From Psychroserpens algicola (GTDB lineage Bacteria > Bacteroidota > Bacteroidia > Flavobacteriales > Flavobacteriaceae), in the NCBI RefSeq assembly GCF_014526325.1, contig NZ_JACNMJ010000008.1:124001-188000 (forward strand): a stretch of DNA of 64,000 nucleotides. The letters are read 5' to 3'. The notes beneath the pieces are model-generated. The model was given only the letters and a program-made list of their open reading frames with translations. It had not been told where the DNA came from and did no database searches. Position numbers and translations under genes: made by a program. Numbering within the stretch: the stretch's first letter is position 1; every line of letters starts with the position of its first letter. This document shows positions 19,973 to 36,360 of this stretch, piece by piece.

Positions 19973-20302
19973 TTACAACTGTGATTTTAGTTTAATGAGT
20001 TGTGCTTTGACACTTTCTAGTTTGTTGATGATTTCAAAAGTATCCAGTGACTTCTTTTTTCCTTCTTTTAGGTGAATTTTTGCCCCTTCTAGTGTAAAAC
20101 CACGTTCTTTGACCAAGTGATAAATAAACTTAAGGTTTTTGATGTCTTCAGGTGTAAATTTCCGATTACCCTTTGCATTCTTCTTAGGTTTTAAAACATC
20201 AAATTCTTTTTCCCAGAATCGAATTAATGAGGTGTTTACATTAAACGCTTTAGCAACTTCGCCAATACCATAGTAACGTTTTTCTGGAAGATCGATATGC
20301 AT
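19973..20302 (-). CDS. MerR-family transcriptional regulator
   Basis: This is a 109-residue protein with an N-terminal MerR winged helix (about 8-75: YYGIGEVAKAFNVNTSLIRFW and the KPKKNAKGNRKFT wing) and a short helical tail. It lacks Cys or other ligand domains, so it resembles the short MerR proteins common in Bacteroidetes. It starts 4 bp after the M23 peptidase stop and is surely co-transcribed with it. The target is unknown. Confidence 0.9.
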   Translation of the reverse strand: MHIDLPEKRYYGIGEVAKAFNVNTSLIRFWEKEFDVLKPKKNAKGNRKFTPEDIKNLKFIYHLVKERGFTLEGAKIHLKEGKKKSLDTFEIINKLESVKAQLIKLKSQL

Positions 20303-20306
20303 AGTC

Positions 20307-21278
20307 TTAGTCTAAAGATTGATTTTCTAGTGATGCTTTTTCTAAGAGTCGAGCATATTCTTCCGCAGTTAGATTTCCGTAGTAGAAATTTATCGGGTTA
20401 ATACGTTCACCATCTTTAAAAACTTCATAATGTAGGTGAGGAGCTTCAGAACGTCCAGTGCTTCCAACATAACCAATTAAATCACCGCGTTTCACCTTTT
20501 GATTGGCACGTACATTATACTTATACAAATGTGCATATAAAGAGACGTAACCGTAACCATGGTCAATTCTGATATGATTTCCATATCCAGATGAATTCGC
20601 ATCAGCGCGTTTAACAACACCATCTCCTGAAGCATAAATTGGTGTGCCGCGTGGTGCGGTGAAATCCATTCCAAAATGAAATTTTCTAACCTTCGTAAAA
20701 GGGTCGGTTCTATAACCATAGCCAGAAGCCATGTGCTTTAAATCTTTATTTCGAACAGGTTGGATTGCAGGAATAGAAGATAAAAACTTCTCTTTATCTT
20801 CAGCTAAAACAGCAATTTCATCTAAAGATCGCGATTGTACAACAATAGCTTTTTGAAGCTGGTCAATACGTTTGTTACTCTCGATGATTAACTTAGAATT
20901 GTCATAACCTTCATATTTTTTATAGCGGTTTACGCCACCAAAACCAGCTCGACGTTGCTCTTCAGGAATCGGGTTAGCTTCAAAATATAATCGGTAAATA
21001 GAGTTATCACGTTCTTCTACGCTTTCTAACGCAGCAAATGCATTGTCAACACGTTTATTAAGAAGCTGATATTGCAATTCGAGATTAGAGAGCTCTCGTT
21101 TTAGAGCACGCTCACGAGGCGATTCTACAAACTGACTCGCAATAAAAACAAAAAGAAATCCGAAGAGTGCAGCGGCCAGTAAAAATATAAATCCGTAGGT
21201 AATAGTCTTCCTTTTCTTTCGCTCTATTTTGCGATAAGAAAGTGTTTCAGGATCGTAATAATATTTTACTTTAGACAT
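20307..21278 (-). CDS. M23-family peptidoglycan endopeptidase
   Basis: This is a 323-residue membrane-anchored protein. A transmembrane helix lies about 28-48, a coiled-coil-like region about 60-165, and the M23 (LytM) domain about 180-300. Zinc ligands are visible in HFGMDFTAPRGTP (His and Asp) and in the HLHYEVF motif. The family cleaves peptide cross-links in peptidoglycan during growth or division. The N-terminus has the MSKVKYYYDPETLSYRKIE segment typical of flavobacterial M23 proteins. It is divergent from alaS (104 bp). Confidence 0.93.
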   Translation of the reverse strand: MSKVKYYYDPETLSYRKIERKKRKTITYGFIFLLAAALFGFLFVFIASQFVESPRERALKRELSNLELQYQLLNKRVDNAFAALESVEERDNSIYRLYFEANPIPEEQRRAGFGGVNRYKKYEGYDNSKLIIESNKRIDQLQKAIVVQSRSLDEIAVLAEDKEKFLSSIPAIQPVRNKDLKHMASGYGYRTDPFTKVRKFHFGMDFTAPRGTPIYASGDGVVKRADANSSGYGNHIRIDHGYGYVSLYAHLYKYNVRANQKVKRGDLIGYVGSTGRSEAPHLHYEVFKDGERINPINFYYGNLTAEEYARLLEKASLENQSLD

Positions 21279-21292
21279 ATCTTAAAAAATTC

Positions 21293-21329
21293 TATTTTTG
21301 CAAGAATAATAGAACGTAACACAAATATA
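21293..21329. promoter_or_regulatory. Overlapping divergent promoters of alaS and the M23 operon
   Basis: TATTTTTG at 21293-21300 is a -7 match reading right toward alaS. CAAATATA at 21322-21329 is the complement of TATATTTG, a -7 match reading left toward the M23 gene. The predicted start points face each other and would overlap by about 14 nt. Upstream TTG boxes are weak for both. Confidence 0.45.
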
Positions 21330-21382
21330 TAAATTGTTTCTTATTTATCGAATTTAATAGAAACAGGTTTTAAAACTAGCGC

Positions 21383-23998
21383 ATGAAGTCTCAAGACATC
21401 CGAAATACCTTTTTAAACTTCTTTGAAGAAAAAAAACACAGCATTGTGCCCTCAGCACCAATGGTTTTAAAAGATGATCCAACATTAATGTTTGTTAATT
21501 CTGGTATGGCACCTTTTAAAGAGTTTTTCCTCGGAAATGCGCAGCCAAAAAATAACCGTCTTGCAGATACTCAAAAATGCCTTCGAGTTTCTGGTAAACA
21601 CAATGATTTGGAAGAAGTAGGTTATGATACTTATCATCATACGCTTTTTGAAATGTTAGGTAACTGGAGTTTTGGTGATTACTTTAAGAAAGAAGCGATT
21701 GCTTGGGCTTGGGAGTTACTGACCGAAAAATTTGAAATCGATAAAGATATTTTATATGTGACTGTTTTTGAAGGTAGCAATGACGATGATAAGCTACCGA
21801 TGGACCAGGAAGCTTATGATTTCTGGAAGGCATTAATTCCTGAAGATCGTATCCTGATGGGAAATAAAAAGGATAATTTCTGGGAAATGGGAGATCAAGG
21901 ACCTTGCGGACCTTGTAGTGAAATTCATGTGGATATTCGTTCGGCGGAAGAAAAAGCTAAAGTTGACGGAAAAACATTAGTGAATATGGACCATCCTCAA
22001 GTGGTAGAAATATGGAACCTGGTATTTATGCAATACAACCGTAAAGCTAATGGTTCACTAGAAAATCTGCCCGACAAGCACATTGATACAGGAATGGGCT
22101 TTGAACGATTATGTATGGTATTGCAAGGTGTTCAGTCTAATTATGATACCGATGTATTTACACCTATTATTCGTGAAATAGAAACCATAACAGATAAAGA
22201 TTATGGTAAAAATGAAAAGGTTGATGTCGCTATTCGTGTGATTTCAGATCATGTTCGAGCTGTGGCGTTTTCAATAGCCGATGGACAATTGCCAAGCAAT
22301 ACTGGAGCAGGTTATGTGATACGAAGAATTTTACGTCGTGCTGTACGTTACGGATTTACATTTTTAGACAAAAAAGAACCCTTTATCTACAGGTTAGTTG
22401 ATGTACTCGTAAATAAAATGGGAAAAGCGTTTCCTGAATTAAAAGAGCAGCGTCAGCTAATTGAAAATGTGATTAAAGAAGAAGAAAATTCGTTTTTAAG
22501 AACTTTAGATCAAGGTTTATTACTACTTGACCGCATTATAACTCATTCGAATTCTAAAGAGATTTCAGGAAATAAAGTATTCGAACTTAAAGATACCTAT
22601 GGATTCCCTGAGGATTTAACCGATTTGATTCTTCGGGAAAATGGCTTTACCTATAATCATGACCAATTCAATAAAAAACTCAAAGAACAGCAAGAACGTG
22701 GTAAAAAAGCATCACAATTAAAATCAGACGACTGGACTGTTCTTATCGATGATGAAGAGCAAGAATTTATTGGTTATGATACTTTAGAAGCTCAAGTGAA
22801 AATCACTAAATACAGAAAGGTGACTTCAAAAAAAGACGGTGAACAATATCAACTGGTATTTAATATAACACCATTTTATGCTGAAGGTGGCGGACAAGTA
22901 GGTGATAAAGGGTATTTAGAAGATGCTCATGGTGATGTCGTTTATATTATTGATACCAAAAGGGAGAATAATGTCGTCATTCATTTTGCAAAAAACTTAC
23001 CGAAGCATATCAATGACACTTTAAAAGCATCAGTAGATACAAAACAACGCTATAGAACCGAATGTAATCATACGGCAACTCACTTATTACATCAAGCCCT
23101 TCGTGAAGTTCTAGGAACGCATGTAGAACAAAAAGGATCGGCTGTGCATTCAAAGTATTTGCGTTTTGATTTTTCACATTTTTCTAAATTAACTGTTGAA
23201 GAATTGCGAGATGTTGAAAGTTTTGTCAACAGACGTATCGAAGGAAAGCTTCCACTTAAAGAACAACGAAACATTCCTATGCAAAAGGCTATTGATGAAG
23301 GAGCAATGGCGTTATTTGGAGAGAAATACGGCGACACTGTAAGAACCGTTCGTTTTGGGCAATCTATTGAATTATGTGGTGGAACGCACGTTAAAAACAC
23401 AGGCGATATTTGGCATTTTAAAATTGTATCAGAAAGTGCAGTGGCAGCAGGAATCAGACGAATAGAAGCGATTACCAGTGATGCTGTTAAAGATTTTTAC
23501 TTTGAAAACAATCGCGCGTATTTTGAAATGAAAGACCTTCTCAATAATGCGAAAGAACCTGTAAAAGCTTTACAGAGTTTGCAGGATGAAAATACGAGCC
23601 TTAAAAAGCAAATAGATACCTTACTAAAAGAAAAAGCTAAGTCTATTAAAGGAGATCTTAAAAGTGAATTATCAGAAGTGAATGGTGTAAAATTCTTGGC
23701 TAAAAAACTCGATTTAGATGCTGCTGGAATTAAAGATGTATGTTTTGAATTAGGAAGTCAGTTTGATGATTTATTTTTATTATTTGGGGCTGAACATAAT
23801 GGGAAAGCAATTTTATCATGCTATATCTCTAAAGAATTAGTAGCAAGCAAAGACTTAAATGCAGGAACGATTGTTAGAGAACTCGGAAAATACATCCAAG
23901 GAGGTGGTGGCGGACAACCATTTTTTGCAACTGCAGGAGGGAAGCATCCAAATGGTATTGATGAGGCTTTGAATGCAGCTATAGACTATATAAAATAA
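21383..23998 (+). CDS. alaS: Alanyl-tRNA synthetase
   Basis: This is an 871-residue class II synthetase that charges tRNA-Ala. The N-terminal aminoacylation domain has [15 protein letters not shown] (about 33-47) and [11 protein letters not shown] (about 315). The editing domain has the zinc ligands HTATHLLHQ (about 561-569) and ELCGGTH (about 667). The C-terminal C-Ala domain ends with [19 protein letters not shown]. Length is typical. It has its own leader with a -7 element at 21293. All key motifs are intact. Confidence 0.98.
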
Positions 23999-24031
23999 TT
24001 GATCATTCTGTATAGAAAGCAGAACTAAATA

Positions 24032-24982
24032 ATGAATCTTCAAACCAAAATACCTCTACAACCACAACAGTTTAATCGTATAGATTACAACTCGAAAGTA
24101 ATGTTGATAGGGTCTTGTTTTTCAGAACATATAGGCGAACGGTTTGAGTACTTTAAGTTTCAAAAGCTTCAAAATCCTTTCGGAATTTTATTTCATCCCT
24201 TGGCTATAGAAACCGTCGTTACCAATGCTATAAACAAAAAAATCTATACGGATAGTGATGTGTTTTTTCATAATGAGCAGTGGCATTGTTATGAGGCACA
24301 CTCTAAGTTGAGCCGTACATCTAAAGATCAACTACTTGACGAGCTTAACACACGTTGCATTGAAAAGTATCAATTTCTAAACTCAGCAACTCATGTTATC
24401 TTAACTTTGGGAACAGCCTGGGCTTATCGTTTTATTGAAACAGATTCATTTGTGGCTAATTGTCATAAGGTGCCGCAAAAACGATTTTTAAAAGAATTAC
24501 TTTCCGTAAATCAAATTTCAGAATCTCTCAATGCAACTATGAGTTTGATTAAAAGTGTTAACCCTGAAGTGAGTTTCATTTTTACAATATCACCTGTACG
24601 ACATATTAAGGATGGCTTTGTAGAAAACACCCTAAGTAAGTCGCATTTAATTGCTGCGGTACATCAAATAATAGAACCGCGACAGCATCAGTATTATTTT
24701 CCTTCTTATGAAATTATGATGGACGAATTACGTGATTATCGTTTTTATAAGGATGATATGCTGCATCCTAATAATATAGCTATAAATTATATTTGGAAGT
24801 ATTTTCAAGACGTTTGGATTTCAGAAGATACTCATGCAACAATGAACGATGTTGATGCAATTCAAAAAGGAATGGCTCACCAACCGTTTAATCCAGAATC
24901 TGATGCTCATACTGCATTTCTTCAACAGCTAAAAGCTAAAGAAACCCTTGTAAAATCAAGGTTTCCGCATATCGTATTTTAA
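24032..24982 (+). CDS. GSCFA domain protein (SGNH-like)
   Basis: This is a 316-residue protein with the family-naming motif GSCFSEHIG near residues 27-35, followed by NPFGILFHP and, near the C-terminus, the D-x-x-H-type segment DDMLHPNNIAINYIW. GSCFA proteins are distant relatives of SGNH hydrolases, with Ser in GSCFS as the candidate nucleophile. Substrate is unknown. It lies 33 bp after alaS and reads in the same direction; it may be co-transcribed. No signal peptide is visible. Confidence 0.88.
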   Translation: MNLQTKIPLQPQQFNRIDYNSKVMLIGSCFSEHIGERFEYFKFQKLQNPFGILFHPLAIETVVTNAINKKIYTDSDVFFHNEQWHCYEAHSKLSRTSKDQLLDELNTRCIEKYQFLNSATHVILTLGTAWAYRFIETDSFVANCHKVPQKRFLKELLSVNQISESLNATMSLIKSVNPEVSFIFTISPVRHIKDGFVENTLSKSHLIAAVHQIIEPRQHQYYFPSYEIMMDELRDYRFYKDDMLHPNNIAINYIWKYFQDVWISEDTHATMNDVDAIQKGMAHQPFNPESDAHTAFLQQLKAKETLVKSRFPHIVF

Positions 24983-24985
24983 AAA

Positions 24986-25032
24986 TACGTCATTTGTCGT
25001 ATTGTCTTGCCTTTTGTTTTAACGCAAATTTG
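24986..25032 (+). promoter_or_regulatory. TACGnCA palindrome and promoter of the lipoprotein/propeller operon
   Basis: The palindrome TACGTCA-TT-TGTCGTA is at 24986-25001 and a -7-like CAAATTTG at 25025-25032. The same arrangement, with the palindrome start 39 nt before the -7 start, occurs upstream of the response regulator at 30001. The palindrome would be centred near -42, as for an activator that replaces the -33 box. Confidence 0.5.
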
Positions 25033-25063
25033 TCTCATTATAAACCCACAAAATTAATCAACA

Positions 25064-25600
25064 ATGAGAAATTTTAAACAATTTATGTTATTTGTAATGG
25101 TAGGATCATTACTAAGTTTAACGTCATGTTCAAGTGATGACGATGGAGGAGGAGCTGGTTCTGCTGGTTCTGGAGTATTAGTTGCTAAAGTTGATGGTAC
25201 ATCTTACCAGTCTTTAGAAATATCATCGTCTGCAACAGTTGCCAATGGAGGTCAAAACCTGATTATTATTGCAACAAATAGCGATGGAAAAGCATTTGCA
25301 TTTACAATTTTTGGTTATGAAGGTGTAGGAACTTATGATTTAGATGGTTCTGTGATTTCAAATGTTAATGTAGCATCTTATACCGAAACAGATGTAGATT
25401 TAAACAATCCGCAAAACTCAACAACAGAAATTTGGCAAGCACCTTATGATAACAGTGCCGTTGGTTTTTTAAAGGTATCTGAAGAAACTGATACTAAAGT
25501 AATTGGAACTTTCCAATTTACATGTAAAAACCTTAACGGTGACCAGTCTGTAAAAACAGTAACAGACGGTTCTTTTAACCTTAACAAGCAGGTACAATAA
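25064..25600 (+). CDS. Surface lipoprotein, DUF6252-like
   Basis: This is a 178-residue lipoprotein. The lipobox Cys is residue 22 (LTSC), followed by SSDDDGGG, the acidic type of signal that sends flavobacterial lipoproteins to the cell surface. The mature part is a single beta-rich domain with VAKVDGTSYQS at the start and GTFQFTCKNLNG near the end, resembling DUF6252 proteins. No catalytic motif is seen. It is 10 bp before the beta-propeller gene and has a palindromic promoter shared with the response regulator gene. Confidence 0.75.
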   Translation: MRNFKQFMLFVMVGSLLSLTSCSSDDDGGGAGSAGSGVLVAKVDGTSYQSLEISSSATVANGGQNLIIIATNSDGKAFAFTIFGYEGVGTYDLDGSVISNVNVASYTETDVDLNNPQNSTTEIWQAPYDNSAVGFLKVSEETDTKVIGTFQFTCKNLNGDQSVKTVTDGSFNLNKQVQ

Positions 25601-25610
25601 CTGTTTGATT

Positions 25611-27521
25611 ATGAAAATGCTATTAATTCAATTGAAGTATTTAGTGACGGTTGCACTCGTATGGAGTGTGACTTCACTAAACGCTCAAAAAGCGGAAACA
25701 CCTGATCAAAATTATGATTTAGGAGCTAAGATTAACGAAATGACACTAACTGTAGGCGGTGTTTTAGTTGTCGCAACTAACGATGGTTTAATAGGTATTA
25801 AACCTACCGAAAGCCAGCCTGTTTTTACATTCACTAATTTCGGAAAGTTAAAACCAGAAGAAACAGATTTTGTTCCAAATTCACCATACATTGTAGTGTC
25901 ACAAGGAGCAGGGTCTAAATTTGCTGGACTAACTAAGACCAAGCGAGCAGTTATAGATTACATTCAGGGTAAAGTTATTTTCAATTCCGAAAATGATAAC
26001 TGGAACCAAATATACACTTGCAATGTTATATTACCACAAAATAAACTTGTAGTCAGTGGTATTCAAAAAGAAGGTGATAAATTTGAAAAAATGACACCTA
26101 AGGTTGCTGTTTACGATTTAAACACATCAAAATTAGACTATAGCTTTTTTTTAGATAAGCCTGGTAGAGTTGGAATTGCTAAAGATTTTAGCGTCACAGG
26201 TACACCTTTGCTATTAAAAGACTTTTTAATCATACCAACAGCACAAGGTTTGATTGCAAAATCCCATTCAGGCGATGATTTATGGCAAACTAAAATCAAG
26301 GGGATTAATTGGATGGTTGCTGATAAAACTGAAAAAGAAATTTATGGTTTTGAAACCACTGCTAATGGGAAAAATACTAGAATACATAAAATTGGAAGCA
26401 ATGGAGATGAGTTATGGCAAGATGATAGAAAAGTTAAAGGGATAGTTTCAAACTTTGAAATTTTGCCACAGGGCTTAGCCGTTGTGAGTGACGTTGCAGG
26501 ATCAAGTGGTGCATTTGCTGCAAGATCAGAGTCAAAAATAACCATGTTCAGTGCGGCTACTGGTGAAGATTTATGGGATAAGGCACCTAAAACCAAAGGC
26601 TATGTACAACATTTTTATATCATGGACGATGGTATTCTCTTTGGAATTTATGAAGGTGGTATAAACAAGATTTCATTTGATGGGAAAACCCTCTTTAAAA
26701 AGCCCCTTAAAACAGGCGAAAATATTATGGTGATGGCACATTCCCCTCAAGGTTTAATATATATTACAGGCGAAGATGCTAATATTGTAAATTTAGAAAC
26801 TGGAGAAGAAGTTTGGGGAAAACCATTAAAATATAAGAGTGCAACATCAGTTGCTTCAACTTTTGATAAAGAAAACAATAGGTATTTAATTGCTGCAGAC
26901 GGTAAAATAATGGCAGTTGATGCCAATAGTGGTGAAGTAAATGATTTAGCAAAGTGCGATTTTGAAGAAAAAGAAGATCCTAACCACATGGAAATTAGAA
27001 ATGGCAGTATATTTTTATCTTCTAGTCAGAATATGACCGCATTAAGTTATGACGGAAACGAAAATTACCACACCTATTATAAATCTCCAGGCAGAAGTAC
27101 TTTCGGTAAAATAGTAGGAGGTATAACAGCTGTGGCTTCTACAGCAATGACGGTCTCTATGAGTGCCAGAGCAGGAGCTAATAGAAGTGCTTATGGAAGT
27201 GTAAATGATTTAGGTAGTTATAACGACTACGGAAAAGAAGCGAAAAGAGCTGCCGATATGTTTGCAGGAATTGCAGGTGCATCATTTGATTATTTGTCAA
27301 CGCGTTTTAAGGCTACTTCTGCAACTGAAAATTCACAATTTATATTGACAAAATTAGAGGATGGTGTAGGACTGGTCAAGGTAAGTAAAGATACAGGAGA
27401 GGTCGAAAAGGAGATTGTTTTAAAAGATAAAAAACCAGAATATCAAGTCGATGAATTTGGAGGGTATTTATACTATAAAGCAAACGACAAAACCATTTAT
27501 GCATACAATCTTAATAATTAA
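25611..27521 (+). CDS. Secreted PQQ-like beta-propeller protein
   Basis: This is a 636-residue protein from ATG 25611; the upstream in-frame TTG at 25605 is less likely because the signal peptide (MKMLLIQ to SLNAQ) begins at the ATG. Repeated four-stranded blades with a Trp/Leu-Trp motif (DLWQTKI, ELWQDDR, DLWDKAP, EEVWGKP) mark a PQQ/quinoprotein-type propeller. A Gly/Ala/Ser-rich insertion of about 75 residues interrupts the last blades (about 497-570). No PQQ-binding or catalytic residues can be confirmed, so it may be structural or protein-binding. It forms an operon with the lipoprotein upstream. Confidence 0.82.
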   Translation: MKMLLIQLKYLVTVALVWSVTSLNAQKAETPDQNYDLGAKINEMTLTVGGVLVVATNDGLIGIKPTESQPVFTFTNFGKLKPEETDFVPNSPYIVVSQGAGSKFAGLTKTKRAVIDYIQGKVIFNSENDNWNQIYTCNVILPQNKLVVSGIQKEGDKFEKMTPKVAVYDLNTSKLDYSFFLDKPGRVGIAKDFSVTGTPLLLKDFLIIPTAQGLIAKSHSGDDLWQTKIKGINWMVADKTEKEIYGFETTANGKNTRIHKIGSNGDELWQDDRKVKGIVSNFEILPQGLAVVSDVAGSSGAFAARSESKITMFSAATGEDLWDKAPKTKGYVQHFYIMDDGILFGIYEGGINKISFDGKTLFKKPLKTGENIMVMAHSPQGLIYITGEDANIVNLETGEEVWGKPLKYKSATSVASTFDKENNRYLIAADGKIMAVDANSGEVNDLAKCDFEEKEDPNHMEIRNGSIFLSSSQNMTALSYDGNENYHTYYKSPGRSTFGKIVGGITAVASTAMTVSMSARAGANRSAYGSVNDLGSYNDYGKEAKRAADMFAGIAGASFDYLSTRFKATSATENSQFILTKLEDGVGLVKVSKDTGEVEKEIVLKDKKPEYQVDEFGGYLYYKANDKTIYAYNLNN

Positions 27522-27540
27522 ATCTTGTTGTTGAGATTAT

Positions 27541-27582
27541 GATTAGGCGTGATTTTTTATTAGATTACGCTTAATCTTTTTT
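27541..27582 (+). terminator. Terminator of the lipoprotein/propeller operon
   Basis: A 10-bp stem GATTAGGCGT (27541-27550) and ACGCTTAATC (27567-27576) with one G-U pair is followed by six T. It lies 20 bp after the propeller stop codon. Confidence 0.6.
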
Positions 27583-27604
27583 AATTGCCTCTTATCGAAA
27601 AATC

Positions 27605-27635
27605 TTGAACTAACCTCATTAAGTATATATATTAG
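27605..27635 (+). promoter_or_regulatory. Candidate promoter of the histidine kinase gene
   Basis: TTG at 27605-27607, then 20 nt, then TATATTAG (27628-27635), one mismatch from TAnnTTTG. The predicted start near 27639 lies after the ATG at 27638, which supports using ATG 27728 as the start of the kinase. Confidence 0.4.
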
Positions 27636-27727
27636 CTATGCTATTAATCAATTTTTATAAAAGAGCGTCAGTTCATTTTGTTGTCCCAAAAGGCCTTACA
27701 AATCTGATGCTTTTTTTATACCCAAAA

Positions 27728-29677
27728 ATGAAAAAAAGTCAGTGCTTTTTTCTCTTCATTTTAATTTGTAGCTCTGGCTATTCACAAAATCTCGATAGTT
27801 TACTTACCGTTGCAAGACAAACCAAAAATGACTCTGTTAAAATTAGAATGTTTAATAAAATAGCATTCAGCTATATCTTTAATGATACCAATAAGGCCTT
27901 AAAGGTTATTAAAGAAGGTAAGGTACTAGCCAATGAAGCACAATTTCATTTTGGTCTAACAGAACTCACCAATACCCATGGCATTTATATGGACATTACC
28001 GGAAAGTCAGATTCTGCTGGGTATTACTTTGAAAAGGCTTTAGATATGAGCCGAACACATGATTTTCAAATCATAGAATCTATGTGTATCAATAATTTGG
28101 GAATGTACAATTGGAATAGAGCCAATTATGATAAAGCTTTGGACTATTTTTTTCAATCATTAAAAATGAATGAAGCTATTGATGATGAAAGATCTACTGC
28201 TTCATCACTAAACAATATTGGTCTCATTTACCAGGAAATGAATTTAAGTGAAAAGGCATTGAGTTATCACAAAAAGGCTTTAAGTGTTCGTGAAAAGTAT
28301 AATTTAGAGAATGAACAAATAGCATCCTTAAATAATATTGGTATAAACTTAAAAGATTTAGGTCGCGTTGATGAAGCCATCATAACTTATAAAAAAGGGA
28401 TAGCACTTGCTAAGCGCAAAAATAACTTAATCGATTATTATAAATTATTAGATAATCTCGCAAATGCATATAATGTTAATGGAGACCTTGATCTGGCTCT
28501 GCAAACGTATTTAAAAGCTTTGGATAAACCCGAAGGCTATGAGTCTGAACAAAAATCTCAGCTAACTACTCTAAACAATATTGCTGCACTTTATAATGAA
28601 TTAAATCAGCCAAAAACGGCTTTGCGTTATGCAGAAAAAGGTTTCGAATTGGTCAAAAAATATCCTGAGATTGAATTGATATCTGCCGATTTGAATTTAA
28701 CCACTGCCGAAAGTTACTATATGCTTAATGACTTTAAAAAAGCAAGGGCAAAACGTCAAGAGTTTATCACACTTAAAGATTCTATTTTTTCTGAAACAAA
28801 TGCAGTAGCCATTGCAGATTTGGAAATCAAATATGAAACCGAAAAGAAAGAACGTGAAATATTAGTGCAGCGTGCTGAATTAGCTGAAAACAAACTTACC
28901 ATTCAGCAGCGTGATTACCAAATTTATGGTTTAATAGCATTGGCATTAATATTAGGGCTTATTGGCTTCTTATTTTACAACCAGCAAAAACTTAAAAATA
29001 AACAGCTACAAAAAGAGAATGAACTCAAAGACGCATTGATTAAAATTGAAACCCAAAATCGTTTGCAAGAGCAACGTCTTAGAATTAGTCGCGATTTGCA
29101 TGATAATATTGGAGCTCAACTGACGTTCATCATTTCATCAATCGATAATTTAAAATACGGTTTTGATATTAAAGATGAAAAACTCACCAAAAAGCTTGAA
29201 ACCATCAGTCAGTTTGCTAGTACTACTATTTATGAGTTAAGAGATACCATTTGGGCAATGAATAAGAATGAGATTTCATTAGAAGATTTACAATCCCGTA
29301 TATCTAATTTTATAGAGAAAGCCGATACAGCTTCAGATGGTGTTCAATTTAAGTTTAATTCTTCAACGTCTAAGATGGAACAGGTGACCTTTACATCAGT
29401 TGAAGGTATGAACATGTATCGCATTATTCAGGAAGGTATTAATAATGCATTAAAATACGCAGATGCCAAAAACATTACAGTTGATTTTTCAGTAGAACAA
29501 GACGATTTTGTTTTTAAAGTTTCAGATGACGGAAAAGGTTTCGATGTTAAAAATGCGACTCTTGGAAATGGCATTAATAATATGAAAAAACGCGCACAGG
29601 ATATTGGAGGACTTCTAACATTACTGTCTGATGATAATGGTACCGTTTTACTACTAAAGTTAAAAAACCACATTTAA
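27728..29677 (+). CDS. TPR-containing sensor histidine kinase (NarL-type partner)
   Basis: This is a 649-residue kinase from ATG 27728, which opens a clear signal peptide (MKKSQCFFLFILICSSGYSQ); an ATG 90 bp upstream would add residues that fit no signal. The periplasmic part has about six to seven tetratricopeptide repeats (residues 45-340). A transmembrane helix lies about 400-417 and a coiled coil about 420-450. The HisKA_3 dimerisation domain has the phospho-accepting His458 in SRDLHDNIGAQ. The HATPase domain ends it, with NNALKYA and DDGKGFD. It probably phosphorylates the LuxR-type regulator at 30067. The ligand is unknown. Confidence 0.93.
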   Translation: MKKSQCFFLFILICSSGYSQNLDSLLTVARQTKNDSVKIRMFNKIAFSYIFNDTNKALKVIKEGKVLANEAQFHFGLTELTNTHGIYMDITGKSDSAGYYFEKALDMSRTHDFQIIESMCINNLGMYNWNRANYDKALDYFFQSLKMNEAIDDERSTASSLNNIGLIYQEMNLSEKALSYHKKALSVREKYNLENEQIASLNNIGINLKDLGRVDEAIITYKKGIALAKRKNNLIDYYKLLDNLANAYNVNGDLDLALQTYLKALDKPEGYESEQKSQLTTLNNIAALYNELNQPKTALRYAEKGFELVKKYPEIELISADLNLTTAESYYMLNDFKKARAKRQEFITLKDSIFSETNAVAIADLEIKYETEKKEREILVQRAELAENKLTIQQRDYQIYGLIALALILGLIGFLFYNQQKLKNKQLQKENELKDALIKIETQNRLQEQRLRISRDLHDNIGAQLTFIISSIDNLKYGFDIKDEKLTKKLETISQFASTTIYELRDTIWAMNKNEISLEDLQSRISNFIEKADTASDGVQFKFNSSTSKMEQVTFTSVEGMNMYRIIQEGINNALKYADAKNITVDFSVEQDDFVFKVSDDGKGFDVKNATLGNGINNMKKRAQDIGGLLTLLSDDNGTVLLLKLKNHI

Positions 29678-29718
29678 ATATTTTAATGTAACTTTAGAGA
29701 TAATAAAATTTTGAAACT

Positions 29719-29919
29719 ATGTTATATACACCAGAAATCATCGCTGCATTTGCCTTATTCCTTGCCACTTTAACTGGATCGCCTGAAACGTATTCGACCG
29801 ATATCAATGATTATGAAGTTACCGAAACTCGTACTTCTGAAACGACTACCGAATCGACTGAAGGTCGCAGCGGAAGAATTACTTTTAAAGCTAAAGAAGG
29901 AGCGACACTAGCACGATAA
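29719..29919 (+). CDS. Small hypothetical protein between kinase and response regulator
   Basis: This is a 66-residue protein with a hydrophobic N-terminus (MLYTPEIIAAFALFLATLTG) and a Thr/Glu-rich polar middle, ending in a basic tail. No family is recognised. It starts 41 bp after the kinase gene and is closed by a good terminator 22 bp on, which supports its being expressed. It could be a membrane-attached small protein linked to the two-component system, but that is a guess from position. Confidence 0.6.
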   Translation: MLYTPEIIAAFALFLATLTGSPETYSTDINDYEVTETRTSETTTESTEGRSGRITFKAKEGATLAR

Positions 29920-29940
29920 GACCTTGCTTAAAAGTTCAGG

Positions 29941-29979
29941 AAAACCTAAATCATTATATGTCGATTTAGGTTTTTTTCT
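29941..29979 (+). terminator. Intrinsic terminator after the 66-residue gene
   Basis: An 11-bp stem AAACCTAAATC (29942-29952) and GATTTAGGTTT (29963-29973) is followed directly by a T-run. It should end the transcript that includes the kinase and separate it from the response regulator. Confidence 0.75.
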
Positions 29980-30000
29980 TTACCATCAATAGTGGTAAAA

Positions 30001-30047
30001 TACGGCAAATGCCGTAGCAATACTATACGCATAAAATCGTAACTTTT
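30001..30047 (+). promoter_or_regulatory. TACGnCA palindrome and promoter of the response regulator
   Basis: The perfect 7-bp palindrome TACGGCA-AA-TGCCGTA is at 30001-30016, followed by a -7-like TAACTTTT at 30040-30047 with no TTG at -33. The spacing from palindrome start to -7 start is 39 nt, the same as upstream of 25064. Autoregulation by the LuxR-type regulator is inferred. Confidence 0.55.
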
Positions 30048-30066
30048 AAGCTCAAATAGAATAGAT

Positions 30067-30717
30067 ATGACTGTCAAAATTGCCATAGTAGATGATAATA
30101 CATTCCTGATAAATACTGTGAAGGAAAAACTGTCTTTTTTTGATGATTTCAGTGTGAAATTTATGGCCATAAATGGTTCTGAATGTCTTACTAAATTAGA
30201 AGATAATCATAATCTTGATTTGATTTTGATGGATATAGAAATGCCTGTTTTAAATGGGATTGAAACTACCGAAATTGTAAAGAAGAAATATCCGCATATA
30301 AAAATTATAATGCTTACTACCTTTGATAATGATGAGCATATTTTTAACGCTATTAAAGCAGGAGCTGATGGATATTTACTTAAAGAAATTAATGCTCAAA
30401 ACCTTCATGATGGTATCATTGAAACCTTAAATGGCGGAGCTGCTATGAATCCTTCCATTGCGTTAAAAACACTCAAACTGTTGCGTAACCCTTTGAGCAT
30501 TGAAAACGAAAAAGATAAAGAAGACATCAGATTATCAAACCGTGAAACTGAAGTTTTAGAGCATCTTAGTAAAGGACTTAATTACATACAAATTGCAGAT
30601 AATTTGATTTTGTCAAAAGGTACGGTCAGAAAACATATTGAAAATATATACCGAAAACTTCAGGTGCATAATAAACTAGAAGCCGTACAAAAGGCTAAGA
30701 AGAACAACCTTATTTAA
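30067..30717 (+). CDS. NarL/LuxR-type response regulator
   Basis: This is a 216-residue regulator. The receiver domain has the acidic pair DD (9-10), phospho-acceptor Asp56 in LILMDIEMP and Lys near 104 (LLKEI). The C-terminal LuxR helix-turn-helix is in the last 65 residues (NRETEVLEHLSKGLNYIQIA and GTVRKHIENIYRKL). It is the natural partner of the HisKA_3 kinase two genes upstream. Its promoter carries a palindrome suited to a LuxR-type dimer. The 3' end overlaps the convergent coaD by 8 bp. Confidence 0.94.
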   Translation: MTVKIAIVDDNTFLINTVKEKLSFFDDFSVKFMAINGSECLTKLEDNHNLDLILMDIEMPVLNGIETTEIVKKKYPHIKIIMLTTFDNDEHIFNAIKAGADGYLLKEINAQNLHDGIIETLNGGAAMNPSIALKTLKLLRNPLSIENEKDKEDIRLSNRETEVLEHLSKGLNYIQIADNLILSKGTVRKHIENIYRKLQVHNKLEAVQKAKKNNLI

Positions 30718-31165
30718 TTCTTACACTATTAGGTACTAATTTGGTATAATCGCCATTGTTTCTAATAACATCTCTTACAATTGAAGATGAAATATACGAC
30801 GTACTCGCTGCGGTTAATAAAAATACAGTTTCAATAGGAGCGAGATCCCTGTTGGTATGGGCAATAGCTTTTTCAAATTCAAAATCTGCCGGATTACGTA
30901 AACCTCTTAAAATAAATTCAACATTATTTTTCTGGCAAAAATCTACTGTTAAACCTTTGTAAGTTACAACCGAAACCTTAGGCTCGTCTTTAAAGGCATT
31001 TTCAATAAATTCTTGACGTTCTTTTAGAGAGAACATGTACTTTTTTTCGGCATTGATACCAATGGCAACAATCACTTCATCAAAAAGCTTTACACTACGC
31101 TTAATAATATCGTAATGACCTAGAGTAATTGGATCAAATGATCCGGGAAATATAGCTCGTTTCAT
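30710..31165 (-). CDS. coaD: Phosphopantetheine adenylyltransferase
   Basis: This is a 151-residue enzyme of coenzyme A synthesis that adenylates 4'-phosphopantetheine. The nucleotidyltransferase motif is FPGSFDPITLGHYDII (about 5-20), followed by RGLRNPADFEFE (about 86-97) and TSYISSSIVRD near 124-134. I place the start at the ATG whose complement is 31163-31165 (MKRAIFPGS), because an upstream ATG adds five residues not typical of the family. It reads with the zinc-ribbon and ddl genes and may share their transcript. Confidence 0.95.
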   Translation of the reverse strand: MKRAIFPGSFDPITLGHYDIIKRSVKLFDEVIVAIGINAEKKYMFSLKERQEFIENAFKDEPKVSVVTYKGLTVDFCQKNNVEFILRGLRNPADFEFEKAIAHTNRDLAPIETVFLLTAASTSYISSSIVRDVIRNNGDYTKLVPNSVRIK

Positions 31166-31206
31166 ACTATAAAGATACAATTATGTTTTATAATCGTTAG
31201 TCGATA

Positions 31207-31815
31207 TCATCGTCGATCAACTTCGAGAATAAATTTTTCTGAATATAACTCTTGAATGTCTTTTTTTGAATACTTATCTCTTAAGAACTCTGCATAGTTC
31301 TCAGGCTTATCTATAGTGTAAATTTTAGATCGTTTAGAGCTGCTTTCGAGATTGTAGATGACCTGTAAACTATCAACTGATACATCAGTAATTTTCATAG
31401 TTGTATAATTGGTTTTTGTTTTAAATTGTATGGTATAAACATCACCAACCATTGGATTGTTAATATATAATTGATCATTTTGATCATCTTTAATTACAGC
31501 GTAAGTCAAGAAAGAAATCATTAATATTGCGAGGAGCAGTCCGCTAAAAAACCAAATCGGATATGGAGCAGAGGCTTCAGTTTTAAACGTGTCTTTAACG
31601 CGTTTCGGTAGTTCTTTTAAACGAAACATCGCACCACAGGTATCACATTCTAAAAACTTTTGTCTACCTATGGGGAATGTCGGAATCCAAAAGACATCAA
31701 CAAACCTACCAAAAACTTCATAATGCATGGTTGTTTTGCTGTCACAGTCAGGACAAGGTACATGGTGCAACCTCCCTTTTTTGATGATTTTTTTTCGAGT
31801 TCCCCAAATAATCAT
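31207..31815 (-). CDS. Zinc-ribbon membrane protein
   Basis: This is a 202-residue protein with an N-terminal zinc ribbon (CPDC at about 20-23 and CDTC at about 57-60) of the type linked to the FPIGRQKF segment seen in YgzB/zinc-ribbon-15 proteins. One transmembrane helix lies about 97-118, followed by a polar, beta-rich C-terminal domain. Function is unknown. It is 4 bp after ddl and 41 bp before coaD on the same strand. Confidence 0.75.
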   Translation of the reverse strand: MIIWGTRKKIIKKGRLHHVPCPDCDSKTTMHYEVFGRFVDVFWIPTFPIGRQKFLECDTCGAMFRLKELPKRVKDTFKTEASAPYPIWFFSGLLLAILMISFLTYAVIKDDQNDQLYINNPMVGDVYTIQFKTKTNYTTMKITDVSVDSLQVIYNLESSSKRSKIYTIDKPENYAEFLRDKYSKKDIQELYSEKFILEVDRR

Positions 31816-31819
31816 AGCA

Positions 31820-32794
31820 TTACTTTAAACAAGACTCTATCGCATTTTCAAATAAGTCTAGCATGCTAATACCAGCTTCAACAGCTTGTTGAGGTAAAAT
31901 ACTTGCTGCTGTTAAACCTGGAACAGTATTGACTTCGAGAAGGTGAGGTTCACCATTTTTAAAGATATATTCGCTTCGGCTAAATCCTTGCAGACGTAAG
32001 ACTTCATAAACTGTTTTTGCTACACGTCTTACCTTTTCAGCTTGTTCATCGCTAATACGTGCAGGTGTAATTTCTTGTGATTCTCCTAAATATTTTGCTT
32101 TATAATCGAAAAAATCATTGTTAGATACGATTTCCGTAATTGGTAATACCAACACTTCGCCTTTATAATTAATGACACCAACAGAAACTTCAGTGCCATC
32201 TAAAAAAGCTTCAATAATGACTTCGTCATCTTCTTTAAAAGCAACGTCTAAAGCATTTTGAAGCTCTTCTTTGTGATACACTTTAGAGATACCAAAGCTA
32301 CTCCCAGCCTTATTAGCTTTAACAAAGCATGGTAAACCAACTTTGTCAATAATAGCATCTTCATCAATGCTGTCGCCTAAGTTTACAAAATACGATTCAG
32401 CAGTTTTAATGCCATAAGGTTTTAGAGCACTCAAGCAGTCTCTTTTATTAAAGGTTAAAGCAGCTTGATACATACCGCAACTCGTATGTGGTATGTTCAA
32501 TAATTCAAAGTATCCTTGCATAAAACCGTCTTCACCAGGAGAGCCATGAATTGCATTAAATACACAATCAAATGTGATTTTTGTTTCATTTACCAATACC
32601 GAAAAATCATTCTTGTCAATAGGGAATTCCTCATTTAAATCATTAACAAACACCCATTTGTTTTTAAAAATATGAATGCGATAAGTGTTATATTTTGAAG
32701 TGTCTAAAGTATCGTAGACCACTTGTCCGCTTTTAAGAGAGATTTCATATTCGCTCGAAAATCCTCCCATGATGATAGCGATATTTTTTTTCAT
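31820..32794 (-). CDS. ddl: D-alanine--D-alanine ligase
   Basis: This is a 324-residue ATP-grasp ligase that makes the D-Ala-D-Ala dipeptide for peptidoglycan. Visible motifs are MGGFSSEYEISLKSG (about 9-23), NAIHGSPGEDG (about 80-90), KANKAGSSFGISKV (about 146-159) and the C-terminal EVNTVPGLT (about 294-302). The Tyr/Ser pair near the SRSEY segment fits the dipeptide (not D-Ala-D-Lac) type. Size is normal. It is divergent from the PASTA protein gene across 155 bp. Confidence 0.97.
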   Translation of the reverse strand: MKKNIAIIMGGFSSEYEISLKSGQVVYDTLDTSKYNTYRIHIFKNKWVFVNDLNEEFPIDKNDFSVLVNETKITFDCVFNAIHGSPGEDGFMQGYFELLNIPHTSCGMYQAALTFNKRDCLSALKPYGIKTAESYFVNLGDSIDEDAIIDKVGLPCFVKANKAGSSFGISKVYHKEELQNALDVAFKEDDEVIIEAFLDGTEVSVGVINYKGEVLVLPITEIVSNNDFFDYKAKYLGESQEITPARISDEQAEKVRRVAKTVYEVLRLQGFSRSEYIFKNGEPHLLEVNTVPGLTAASILPQQAVEAGISMLDLFENAIESCLK

Positions 32795-32903
32795 TTAAGA
32801 CCGATTTAAGTATGCTGGGTTTATTTCAGTTTATAATTTGTATTAATTCACAATAAAAACAATGAATTATCAGTTAAGCTAAAATACCAAATAAACCCAT
32901 AAT

Positions 32904-32930
32904 AAAAACGCTTTCGTTTTTATATATTTG
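32904..32930 (+). promoter_or_regulatory. Hairpin and -7 element upstream of the PASTA gene
   Basis: TATATTTG at 32923-32930 matches the -7 consensus, 20 bp before the ATG. It is immediately preceded by a perfect 7-bp inverted repeat AAAAACG (32904-32910) and CGTTTTT (32915-32921), where a -33 box would be partly covered. A repressor site or the AT-rich part of a terminator are alternatives. Confidence 0.4.
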
Positions 32931-32949
32931 TCCTCTAGTACTAAATTTC

Positions 32950-33510
32950 ATGAGTGTCATACAATTTCTTAAGAGTAAAACGTTTTTTAAGCAATTAGGA
33001 TTAGCAATAGTCGCTTTACTTGTTATCGTATTTTTAACAATGCAATGGCTAAAAAGTACGACTAATCACGGAGAGTTTGTAGAAGTTCCTGACTTAAAAG
33101 GTAAAACACTTGAAACCGTTGCAATCGAACTTGATGACCATGATTTGGTTATGGAAATTCAGGATTCGGCTAACTACAATCCTAAATATCCTAAATTTTC
33201 TGTGATTGAGCAATATCCCAGAGCAGGAGCTCAAGTGAAAGAAAACCGAAAAATTTATCTCACTTTAAATCCGTCTGGATACCGTAAAGTAGCAGTGCCT
33301 AATATTGTCCGACGTACATTTCGTCAAGCGAAACCAACATTAGAAACCTTAGGATTTGAAGTTGGAAAAGTCACCTATGTCGATGATATAGGAAAAGACG
33401 AAGTAATTGCTATAAAATTTAAAGGCGAAACTATTTCAGCAGGCAGAATGTTGCCGCTAACTTCAAAAATTGATGTTGTTTTAGGAAACGGAAAACGAGG
33501 ATCAAACTAA
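32950..33510 (+). CDS. PASTA-domain membrane protein
   Basis: This is a 186-residue protein with one transmembrane helix (about 14-33) and two PASTA domains (about 45-110, from VPDLKGKTLETV, and about 115-183, from VPNIVRRTFRQAK). PASTA domains bind peptidoglycan fragments in kinases and penicillin-binding proteins, but no kinase or transpeptidase is attached here. It lies between ddl (divergent) and rluD (4-bp gap); a standalone PASTA protein at this place is common in the phylum. A cell-wall role is inferred. Confidence 0.9.
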   Translation: MSVIQFLKSKTFFKQLGLAIVALLVIVFLTMQWLKSTTNHGEFVEVPDLKGKTLETVAIELDDHDLVMEIQDSANYNPKYPKFSVIEQYPRAGAQVKENRKIYLTLNPSGYRKVAVPNIVRRTFRQAKPTLETLGFEVGKVTYVDDIGKDEVIAIKFKGETISAGRMLPLTSKIDVVLGNGKRGSN

Positions 33511-33514
33511 AACA

Positions 33515-34552
33515 ATGACTACAGCACATACAGCAGCCGAACAAAATGATGATGAATTATTTGAGCATCACGCCTTTACAGTAGATAAAGGTCAGGCGCC
33601 ATTACGTATCGATAAGTATTTAATGAATCGAATTGAAAATGCGACACGTAATAAAATTCAAACTGCAGCAAAAGACGGTAGTATTTATGTCAATGATGTT
33701 CAGGTCAAACAAAATTATAAGGTCAAGCCTTTTGATAAAATCCGAGTCTTATTCGAACATCCACCTTACGAATATTTATTAACACCAGAAGATATCCCTT
33801 TAGATATTGTCTATGAAGATGATGAGCTTTTAGTGATTAATAAACCAGCCGGAATGGTCGTCCATCCTGGTCACGGAAATTATTCTGGGACACTAATCAA
33901 TGCCTTGGTATTTCACTTTGAAAATTTGCCAAACAACTCCAGCGAACGTCCAGGACTGGTACATCGCATCGATAAAGACACAAGTGGTTTATTAGTGGTT
34001 GCCAAAACAGAGCAAGCGATGACGCATCTGTCTAAGCAGTTTTTTAATAAAACCAGTGAGCGCGAATATGTAGCTATTGTTTGGGGAAATATGACAGAAG
34101 ACGAAGGTACAATTGAAGGGCATATTGGTCGCCATCCCAAAAACAGATTGCAAAATACCGTATTCGAAAGTGATGATGCCGATGAGAAAGGCAAACCAGC
34201 AGTTACACATTATAAAGTAATCGAGCGATTGGGTTATGTGACTTTGGTGTCGTGCAAACTCGAAACAGGTCGTACACATCAAATACGTGTCCATATGAAA
34301 CATATTGGACATACACTGTTTAACGACGAGCGTTATGGTGGCGAACGCATTTTAAAAGGCACTACCTTTTCAAAATATAAGCAGTTTGTAGATAACTGTT
34401 TCAAAATTTTACCGCGACAGGCACTGCATGCTAAAACTCTCGGATTTCAACATCCAAAAACGGGTGAGCAACTTAGTTTCGATTCGCCAATTCCAGATGA
34501 TATGCAACAGTGTATTGAGAAATGGCGTCATTATGCCACGCACATGCAATAG
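33515..34552 (+). CDS. rluD: Ribosomal large subunit pseudouridine synthase, RluD family
   Basis: This is a 345-residue RluA/RluD-family synthase that makes pseudouridines in 23S rRNA. An S4 domain lies about 26-95. The catalytic motif HRIDKDTSGLLVVAKT (about 150-165) includes the essential Asp, and the RTHQIRVHMKHIGH motif is near 250-263. The N-terminal S4 domain and length fit RluD rather than RluA. It follows the PASTA gene by 4 bp. RluD or RluC target positions cannot be told apart with certainty. Confidence 0.92.
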   Translation: MTTAHTAAEQNDDELFEHHAFTVDKGQAPLRIDKYLMNRIENATRNKIQTAAKDGSIYVNDVQVKQNYKVKPFDKIRVLFEHPPYEYLLTPEDIPLDIVYEDDELLVINKPAGMVVHPGHGNYSGTLINALVFHFENLPNNSSERPGLVHRIDKDTSGLLVVAKTEQAMTHLSKQFFNKTSEREYVAIVWGNMTEDEGTIEGHIGRHPKNRLQNTVFESDDADEKGKPAVTHYKVIERLGYVTLVSCKLETGRTHQIRVHMKHIGHTLFNDERYGGERILKGTTFSKYKQFVDNCFKILPRQALHAKTLGFQHPKTGEQLSFDSPIPDDMQQCIEKWRHYATHMQ

Positions 34553-34555
34553 TAT

Positions 34556-34655
34556 TTGGGCGTTCCCTTTTCAGGTTTCAAACCTTAAAAGGTCAGGCTC
34601 TCGCACGTCGCTCTCGTTGAGGAGCTCCACAAGCGCTCCATCCTTAACGCAAGTT
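34556..34655. repeat. GC-rich structured non-coding element, likely dispersed repeat
   Basis: About 100 bp between rluD and yaaA is clearly richer in G+C than its surroundings. It opens with TTTGGGCGTTCCC and a hairpin (CCTTTT 34566-34571 with AAAAGG 34587-34592, inner AGGT with ACCT), and closes near CTTAACGCAAG. I recall similar GGGCGT...GGTCGGGCT elements as repeats in flavobacterial genomes, but only this copy is in the window. The spacer (204 bp) shows no gene. Confidence 0.45.
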
Positions 34656-34756
34656 TAAGCCATTAGTTTTACTTATTGCCTTATAGAAAGATTTGAAAAG
34701 GTTTAGTTGACGATTAGTGTTTAGAATTGTAAATTTGAAATAAAAATTTCCGATAT

Positions 34757-35515
34757 ATGAAACTCGTTCTATCTCCAGCAAAATCATTAGACTTCGATAG
34801 TAAGTTGCCTACAACTAAAACCTCTGAAGCTTGTTTTTTAAAACAATCAGAACGTTTAAATAAGTTGCTCAAAAAGAAATCGGCAAAAAGCTTATCTAAA
34901 CTCATGAAGATTTCTGATAATTTAGGGCAGTTAAACTACGAACGCAATCAGGAATGGTCGCTTCCGTTTACTAAAGATAATGCCAGACCAGCCGTTTATG
35001 CTTTTAGTGGTGATGTGTATCGCGGATTGGATGCTTACTCTATCGACACAAAAAAAATAGACAAACTTCAAGATACAGTAAGAATTATCTCTGGGTTATA
35101 CGGTATTTTAAAACCCTTAGATTTAATGCAACCTTACCGATTAGAAATGGGCACCAAATTTCCGGTAGGAAAAAACAAAAATCTATATGAGTTCTGGAAA
35201 AAACAAGTTACGCAGGCTTTAAACGATGAGTTAGAAGAAGGCGAATTGTTTTTAAACCTGGCAAGCAACGAATATTTTAAAGCTATAGATACAAAAGCTT
35301 TAAAAGTGCCTGTTATTACAGCAAATTTTAAAGATTTTAAAAACGGAGAATATAAAACCATAATGACTTTTGCTAAACAAGCCAGAGGATATATGACACG
35401 TTATATTATCGATACCAATGCCAATTCAATTGAAGATATAAAAGGCTTTAATTATGAAAACTATCGCTTTTCTGAAGCATTATCAAGCGATACCGAATTG
35501 ATATTCACGAGATAG
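34757..35515 (+). CDS. yaaA: YaaA-family peroxide stress protein
   Basis: This is a 252-residue YaaA (DUF328) protein; in E. coli it limits free iron and oxidative DNA damage during peroxide stress. The family landmarks are LSPAKSLDF at the start, FSGDVYRGLDAYS (about 80-92), ISGLYGILKPLDLMQPYRLEMG (in two stretches under 20 residues, about 110-131) and NLASNEY near 166. Length is usual. Its stop codon directly abuts the convergent bTHX gene. The role is transferred from the family. Confidence 0.94.
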   Translation: MKLVLSPAKSLDFDSKLPTTKTSEACFLKQSERLNKLLKKKSAKSLSKLMKISDNLGQLNYERNQEWSLPFTKDNARPAVYAFSGDVYRGLDAYSIDTKKIDKLQDTVRIISGLYGILKPLDLMQPYRLEMGTKFPVGKNKNLYEFWKKQVTQALNDELEEGELFLNLASNEYFKAIDTKALKVPVITANFKDFKNGEYKTIMTFAKQARGYMTRYIIDTNANSIEDIKGFNYENYRFSEALSSDTELIFTR

Positions 35516-35641
35516 TTAGGCTTTTTTATTTGGGTTGATTTTGTCTTCCGTTTTCGGACGCTTTTTTATACGCGGTCGCCTTACACCAAATGTGCCTCTG
35601 TGTATTTTTCCGCGTCTTGATTTTTTATCACCTTTTCCCAT
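35516..35641 (-). CDS. Small ribosomal subunit protein bTHX
   Basis: This is a 41-codon gene missed by length filters. It starts with ATG (complement 35639-35641) and stops at TAA (complement 35516-35518). The protein begins MGKGDKKSRRGKIHRGTFG and is very basic, with 16 Lys/Arg among the first 30 residues, matching the bTHX (THX) protein that sits on the 30S head in Thermus and is conserved in Bacteroidetes. It is convergent with yaaA with no spacer. Identification rests on the conserved N-terminus. Confidence 0.88.
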   Translation of the reverse strand: MGKGDKKSRRGKIHRGTFGVRRPRIKKRPKTEDKINPNKKA

Positions 35642-35706
35642 AGTTTTTGTGTAATTTGTAGTGTCTTTAATGTACAAAAAAATATCATCAAATTCAAGTT
35701 AAATCT

Positions 35707-36360
35707 GTGTTCTTTCATAAACATCCATACCAACCATTTATTAAAAAGGATACTACAAAATTAATTGTTGGTACCTTGCCACCTCCACGATTTACTACAG
35801 GAGAGCTCCTCGAAAATGATGTTGACTTTTGTTATGGTAGTTATTATAATTCTTTGTGGTTGTATATCGATGAAATTTACCAACTTAATTTGCGCTATGA
35901 TAATTCTCAAGAAGCGATAGCACAACGTAAGGCGTTTTTAATTGCACATAAAATAGGTGTTTGTGATATTGTCGATAGCGCAGAACGTGATAAAATAGAT
36001 GCTTCTGATTTGGGGATGCAACATATCAAATTAAGAGACCTTGTTGGTTATTTAAAACGTTATCCAAATATTAATACCTTACTATTTATAGGCGGAAACA
36101 GTAAAAACGGACCAGAATATTTTTTTAGGAAACATCTCAAAGATTACAATCTTAAATTAGAACTGGTGTCTAATGAAGTGCCAAGAGTACATCAGTTTCC
36201 TTTAGATCAAAGAAGCATTAAAACAATCTCTTTAACCTCGTCATCTGGTGCTGCCAATATCTCCATTAGTCGAATGCCTCTATACAAACAAATGAAAGCA
36301 CGTCATCCAGAATTTAATACGTTCGATTTTAGAGTGCTTCAGTATCGCGAGTATTTATAG
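35707..36360 (+). CDS. Uracil-DNA-glycosylase-fold protein
   Basis: This is a 217-residue protein with GTG start 35707. The N-terminal KLIVGTLPPPRFTTGE and the C-terminal LTSSSGAANISISRM have the layout of the UDG superfamily: a Gly-rich first strand loop and a final Ser/Asn-rich loop. The catalytic residue is not obvious, so activity is uncertain. It would act on DNA or a nucleotide if active. It is convergent with the tape-measure-like gene, 7 bp away. Confidence 0.7.
   Translation: MFFHKHPYQPFIKKDTTKLIVGTLPPPRFTTGELLENDVDFCYGSYYNSLWLYIDEIYQLNLRYDNSQEAIAQRKAFLIAHKIGVCDIVDSAERDKIDASDLGMQHIKLRDLVGYLKRYPNINTLLFIGGNSKNGPEYFFRKHLKDYNLKLELVSNEVPRVHQFPLDQRSIKTISLTSSSGAANISISRMPLYKQMKARHPEFNTFDFRVLQYREYL

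Follow-up and report, generated by a model that had tools for sequence, protein, structure and literature searches.

A 64,000-nucleotide stretch of the Psychroserpens algicola genome (the window) encodes what we regard, with considerable confidence, as a two-component system that is autoregulated and controls a small regulon, in which a regulator dimer bound to a 7-2-7 dyad activates the regulator's own gene, a lipoprotein/propeller operon, and an outer-membrane barrel gene. Judged from the DNA of the window and its relatives, the dyad, which recurs at a fixed distance from the promoter, is very probably the site through which the regulator switches on its own gene and those nearby. An earlier, sequence-only reading had proposed a local two-component regulon in which the regulator activates itself and the lipoprotein/propeller operon, and the comparisons presented here lend it support.

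Operators and promoters in the window

Palindromes start at positions 24986 and 30001 (operators O1 and O2, Table 1), as the sequence-only reading had described, and they are the sole exact TACGNCANNTGNCGTA matches in the window. No exact match arose in 100 dinucleotide shuffles of the window, and a pattern search of the 3.8-Mb genome returned three in all. With two mismatches permitted, 10 of the 100 window shuffles reached the real match count, so that the window count is then not unusual; for this reason, the case for the dyads was built on exact matches and conservation. The two-mismatch count also speaks for the view that the dyads pair up by chance, or are simply the AT-rich sequence of promoters in general, with no dedicated regulator, to which we assign a negligible probability. 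A chance pair is excluded by the lack of exact matches in the shuffles together with the rarity of the pattern in the genome, and conservation and geometry across genera (see below) refute it as well. An RNA element was also considered and rejected: both predicted starts are 3' of their dyads, and an Rfam search of positions 20000–36000 of the window gave no match.

Each palindrome begins 39 nt before a −7-like box (CAAATTTG at 25025 and TAACTTTT at 30040), an offset that had been given correctly. The accompanying claim that there is no TTG at −33 holds for the regulator promoter, which has GCA at that place, but not for the lipoprotein promoter, where a TTG lies 20 nt 5' of the −7 box. The lipoprotein promoter follows the Bacteroidota sigma-A pattern (TTG at −33 and a TAnnTTTG-type −7 element), with a −7 box that starts with C rather than T; the −7 element of the regulator promoter is weak. 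Because the −7 box occupies −12 to −5 in Flavobacterium (PMC9723704), the predicted starts place the dyad at −51 to −36, centred at about −43.5 and, in the lipoprotein promoter, directly 5' of the TTG.

Table 1. Features of the regulator locus (window positions)
Feature	Position	Strand	Remarks
Operator O1, 7-2-7 dyad TACGTCA-TT-TGTCGTA = TACGTCATTTGTCGTA	24986..25001	+	4 nt 3' of the GSCFA gene stop; conserved in 62 homologous promoters
−33 element TTG, abuts O1	25002..25004	+	TTG at the same offset in 51/62 homologues
−7 element CAAATTTG, Bacteroidota TAnnTTTG type	25025..25032	+	Predicted start ~25037; TTTG at +43 in 62/62 homologues
DUF6252 lipoprotein, 178 aa, lipobox Cys22	25064..25600	+	Pfam PF19765; Cys22 invariant; beta-strand model
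Secreted PQQ-like beta-propeller, 636 aa, helical insertion	25611..27521	+	Pfam PF13360
Intrinsic terminator 3' of the propeller gene	27541..27576	+	Closes the lipoprotein-propeller unit
Sensor kinase	27728..29677	+	Signal peptide, periplasmic TPRs, one TM, HisKA_3 + HATPase_c; listed ORF from 27638
Small orphan ORF, hydrophobic start, between kinase and regulator	29719..29919	+	No relative in 80 loci
Hairpin + oligo-T terminator 5' of O2	29942..29977	+	Parts the regulator from the kinase unit
Operator O2, 7-2-7 dyad TACGGCA-AA-TGCCGTA = TACGGCAAATGCCGTA	30001..30016	+	No TTG after it; kept 5' of the regulator in ~47 loci
−7 element TAACTTTT	30040..30047	+	Predicted start ~30052; TTT at offset 43 in 36/47 homologues
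NarL/FixJ-type response regulator, REC + GerE	30067..30717	+	Proposed binder of O1 and O2

Genes and transcription units of the locus

Pfam assignments bear out the gene neighbourhood as first described and give the order GSCFA protein, DUF6252 lipoprotein, PQQ-type (PQQ_2) propeller, TPR/HisKA_3 kinase, and REC-GerE regulator. Since terminators follow the propeller gene and precede O2, the lipoprotein-propeller pair and the regulator gene form two distinct units, and a dyad heads each of them. A search 5' of the window kinase gene turned up no matching dyad.

The lipoprotein model (beta-strand, mean pLDDT 87) had no PDB match below an E value of 0.001; with no confident match for the fold, no function follows from the model. 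The propeller model (mean pLDDT 81) matched generic propellers in the PDB, including BamB, with weak TM-scores, and a propeller profile run against PDB sequences found none. The propeller was not filed as BamB, an outer-membrane lipoprotein of the BAM complex, because its signal sequence lacks the lipobox Cys, although PQQ_2 is present.

The kinase, whose single TM is close to residue 429 when counted on the long ORF, is of the HisKA_3 type with its catalytic motifs intact (PF07730 and PF02518; RDLHDN at 485, N box at 603, and G boxes at 630 and 643). The regulator has both domains of the NarL/FixJ receiver-GerE family above cut-off (PF00072 and PF00196) and the conserved phospho-acceptor Asp, Thr/Ser, and Lys (D56, T84, and K106), and its nearest solved regulators, all full-length matches, are VraR, NarL, and DesR. 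The small ORF between the two genes was rejected as a conserved member of the system, to which, given its lack of relatives in 80 loci, it probably does not belong. Many relatives have a second kinase gene at this place.

Conservation of the dyad and its promoter geometry

The comparative set comprised 80 Flavobacteriaceae loci with regulator relatives 72–91% identical, across which the neighbourhood AlaS-GSCFA-lipoprotein-propeller-kinase-regulator recurs. Conservation in homologous loci was the check that the earlier reading had called for, and dozens of species do keep the palindromes and their rigid promoter geometry 5' of both genes, lipoprotein and regulator. Across these loci, 62 lipoprotein promoters carry a dyad, 69–79 or 94–99 nt from the start codon. 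Counted from the palindrome start, TTG stands at +16 in 51 of these promoters and TTTG at exactly +43 in all 62, never shifted; promoter geometry played no part in choosing the sites. When 19 lipoprotein promoters are aligned, the invariant positions fall in the dyad, the TTG, and the CA..TTTG box, with few between them. A dyad also precedes the regulator gene in about 47 loci, with TTT at offset 43 in 36 and TTG in only six. Because this arrangement recurs across many related genera, the dyad is very probably the regulator's switch.

The outer TACG/CGTA is the most constant part of the dyad, TACGNCA-NN-TGNCGTA. Relatives in Winogradskyella, Bizionia, and Algibacter have drifted to the asymmetric TACGTAATTCATCGTA or similar with the spacing unchanged, and the regulator promoter often has no dyad in clades such as these. 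Within a species, the lipoprotein and regulator operators show a mean of 2.4 differences versus 3.9 expected (39 species), a likeness that none of 5000 permutations reached and to which shared ancestry contributes.

Further dyad copies precede the propeller gene in 13 loci (several genera) and, in several genera, the gene for a small membrane/coiled-coil protein 5' of the kinase (clusters c13 and c39). Proteins of clusters c13, c32, and c39 (L045, L030, L027, L066, L074, L070, and others), which have 80–110 aa, an N-terminal TM helix, and a coiled coil, are encoded directly 5' of the kinase in many relatives, often with their own dyad promoter; they are possibly kinase partners. MORN-repeat secreted proteins occur at the regulator locus in L047, L048, and L049, with promoter dyads in L047 and L048. 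At the locus of the Flavobacterium relatives L070, L074, L083, and L084, there is a dyad-headed three-gene operon with two other propeller-like proteins.

Activation or repression

A class II activator site is centred at about −40 to −44 and fixed relative to the promoter, and the dyads, centred at about −43.5 with the TTTG offset constant in 62 of 62 promoters, have this layout. On the strength of this centre, the NarL precedent near −43, and the nearest solved relatives (VraR, NarL, and DesR), we conclude that the regulator would activate as a class II factor. It could instead bind the dyads and repress, or switch, by occluding the −33 region, with negative autoregulation of its own gene. 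The position by itself is compatible with repression, and the lipoprotein promoter has a complete −33/−7 pair whose TTG abuts the operator, so that a bound dimer could block polymerase. However, a spacing to the −7 box that is invariant in 62 of 62 promoters is what one expects of an activator touching polymerase, the regulator promoter, with no −33 TTG and a weak −7 element, suggests a need for an activator, and NarL activates from 7-2-7 sites at the same place (PMC4549865). We therefore consider repression unlikely and retain activation as the preferred reading.

Co-occurrence of the dyad and the regulator across genomes

We searched 151 Flavobacteriaceae genomes, approximately one per genus, of which 44 have the regulator (called at E ≤ 1e-60) and 107 do not. 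The strict dyad occurs in 20 of the 44 regulator genomes versus 8 of the 107 others, and the dyad followed by TTG in 27 versus 8. The composite signature, a dyad with a −7 box at offset 39, is present in 26/44 versus 0/107 (Fisher p 9e-18, a value that overstates the certainty because related genomes are not independent), and its reversed-pattern control matched once in the 151 genomes. Of 61 composite sites, 52 are no more than 12.5 kb away from the regulator gene, against an expected ~0.5. The strict signature is absent from 18 of the 44 regulator genomes.

The dyads might instead serve another transcription factor, encoded elsewhere, that co-regulates the locus, since the genome encodes at least nine LuxR-type regulators and eight regulator-less genomes carry the strict palindrome. 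However, in regulator-less genomes the strict palindrome does not exceed its reversed-pattern background, and the composite signature is missing from all 107 and clusters at the regulator gene. We judge this alternative very improbable and continue to assign the dyads to the linked regulator.

Distant sites (e.g., L150, L153, L160, and L161) keep the geometry and precede genes for secreted proteins or lipoproteins. In three genera (L150, L156, and L161), the dyad promoter points away from a tex-like gene into a gene for a secreted protein of 250–335 aa, a recurrent distant target. A variant, TATGNCA-NN-TGNCATA followed by TTG, was seen in G017, G025, G031, G088, G113, G114, and G139, mostly regulator-less genomes; a further member of this regulator family may use it as its operator.

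A third site in the genome

The third genomic dyad, TACGTCATTTGTCGTA, which the sequence-only reading did not include, lies on contig 11 between xerD and the outer-membrane barrel gene. Six of the closest relatives have a dyad in this position, and more distant relatives are without it. GTTAATAA follows at exactly 31 nt from the dyad start in the six relatives and, as read from the sequence, at 30 nt in the P. algicola genome. This site breaks the +43 spacing, and because its distance to the gene differs as well (~175 nt), it may act from a class I position or together with a second factor. As to whether the regulon is local, the signature does cluster at the regulator locus, but a wholly local regulon was rejected in view of this conserved third site and of some distant ones.

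Proposed mechanism

The sites, their rigid geometry, their conservation, and their association with the regulator gene in occurrence and location are observed; direct binding, phosphorylation, the pairing of kinase and regulator, activation rather than repression, and an envelope-borne signal are what we infer. The membrane kinase, with its periplasmic TPR sensor, would phosphorylate the NarL/FixJ-type regulator, whose phosphorylated dimer would bind TACGNCA-NN-TGNCGTA centred ~43–44 bp 5' of the start and activate sigma-A transcription from the class II position. Its predicted targets are its own gene, which would give positive feedback, the lipoprotein/propeller operon, and, via the third dyad, the barrel gene on another contig. 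The most economical guess at the role of the system is a loop for envelope homeostasis, because the sensor domain, the lipoprotein, the propeller, and the barrel are all extracytoplasmic.

Variability of the kinase

Median identities to the window proteins are 77% for the regulator, 61% for the propeller, 46% for the lipoprotein, and 42% for the kinase, which makes the kinase the most variable component. In many loci with regulators 79–91% identical, the window kinase shares only 38–47% identity with the best-matching kinase in the corresponding position, and approximately 30 loci hold two kinases in tandem. In a quick tree built from 100 kinases of these loci, several deep lineages share this slot, on long branches; as an account of kinase replacement, it is suggestive only. 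Tentatively, the regulator, operator, and promoter geometry could form a conserved hub around which sensor kinases and much of the target set are exchanged between lineages. If so, this would be a two-component system with inputs swapped around a fixed output.

Comparison with known systems

NarL of Escherichia coli activates from 7-2-7 sites near −43, for example at yeaR, with the format TAC-N10-GTA, and the dyads described here share the frame of its reference site, TACCCCTAAAGGGGTA (PMC4549865). The system thus resembles NarL/NarP in its REC-GerE regulator, its 16-bp TAC-N10-GTA dyad, and activation sites that lie near −43 at some NarL/NarP promoters. It differs in the inner bases (G-N-CA), in its Bacteroidota −33/−7 promoter, in a kinase with periplasmic TPRs rather than a NarX-type nitrate sensor, and in an operator almost confined to one locus. 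Envelope systems of the VraSR/LiaSR type likewise combine a HisKA_3 kinase with a LuxR-type regulator, autoregulation, and envelope targets, and VraR is the closest solved relative of the window regulator; the likeness is a resemblance only, as the window system has a TPR sensor, no LiaF-like partner that we could find, and unrelated targets (DUF6252 lipoprotein and propeller). Within the Bacteroidota, FimS/FimR of Porphyromonas gingivalis also pairs a LuxR-type regulator with a membrane kinase, and its known targets are fimbriae; its likeness to the window pair is by description (LuxR-type regulator and membrane kinase) only. Standard Bacteroidota sigma-A promoters (TTG, ~20 nt, TAnnTTTG) have the same type of −7 box at −12 to −5 (PMC9723704), to which the window promoters add a fixed upstream dyad and, in the regulator promoter, the absence of TTG.

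A literature search returned no pertinent description of such a regulon, or of an operator for Flavobacteriaceae pairs of TPR kinase and LuxR-type regulator. The regulon is new and its kind is already known. For dozens of genera, its operator can now be given at base-pair resolution, along with a predicted start and a brief list of targets, and the function of a conserved, unstudied lipoprotein/propeller operon becomes testable through one regulator.

A second LuxR-type regulator and adjacent tandem units

A paralogous LuxR-type regulator is encoded elsewhere (L237:1456-2091, minus strand), beside four tandem units of ~70 nt (L237:640-1470; G000:C8 ~1248100-1248930). Three of the units have an operator TACGTAG-AA-CTACGTA with a TTG and a −7 box; the dyads of this regulator (TACGTAG-NN-CTACGTA) differ at the centre and share the frame and promoter geometry. 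Most units begin, at the predicted +1, near CTATTAAT; at least two of them form a strong hairpin with oligo-T. That these conserved RNA-like units begin at the predicted start (offset ~51) independently supports its placement. The units had no Rfam match at the gathering score, and CsrA was not found in the genome. In appearance they are an sRNA family of several copies under the control of the paralogous regulator, much in the manner of multicopy sRNAs like FopS (PMC11697453). Similar tandem units lie next to a related regulator in G043, G083, G115, G012, and G124, and the operator with TTG occurs in 15 of the 151 genomes, with no control match. That the TACGTAG centre sits in an unchanged frame suggests that specificity in this regulator family follows a readable code, in which the outer TACG is shared and the inner three bases distinguish the regulators.
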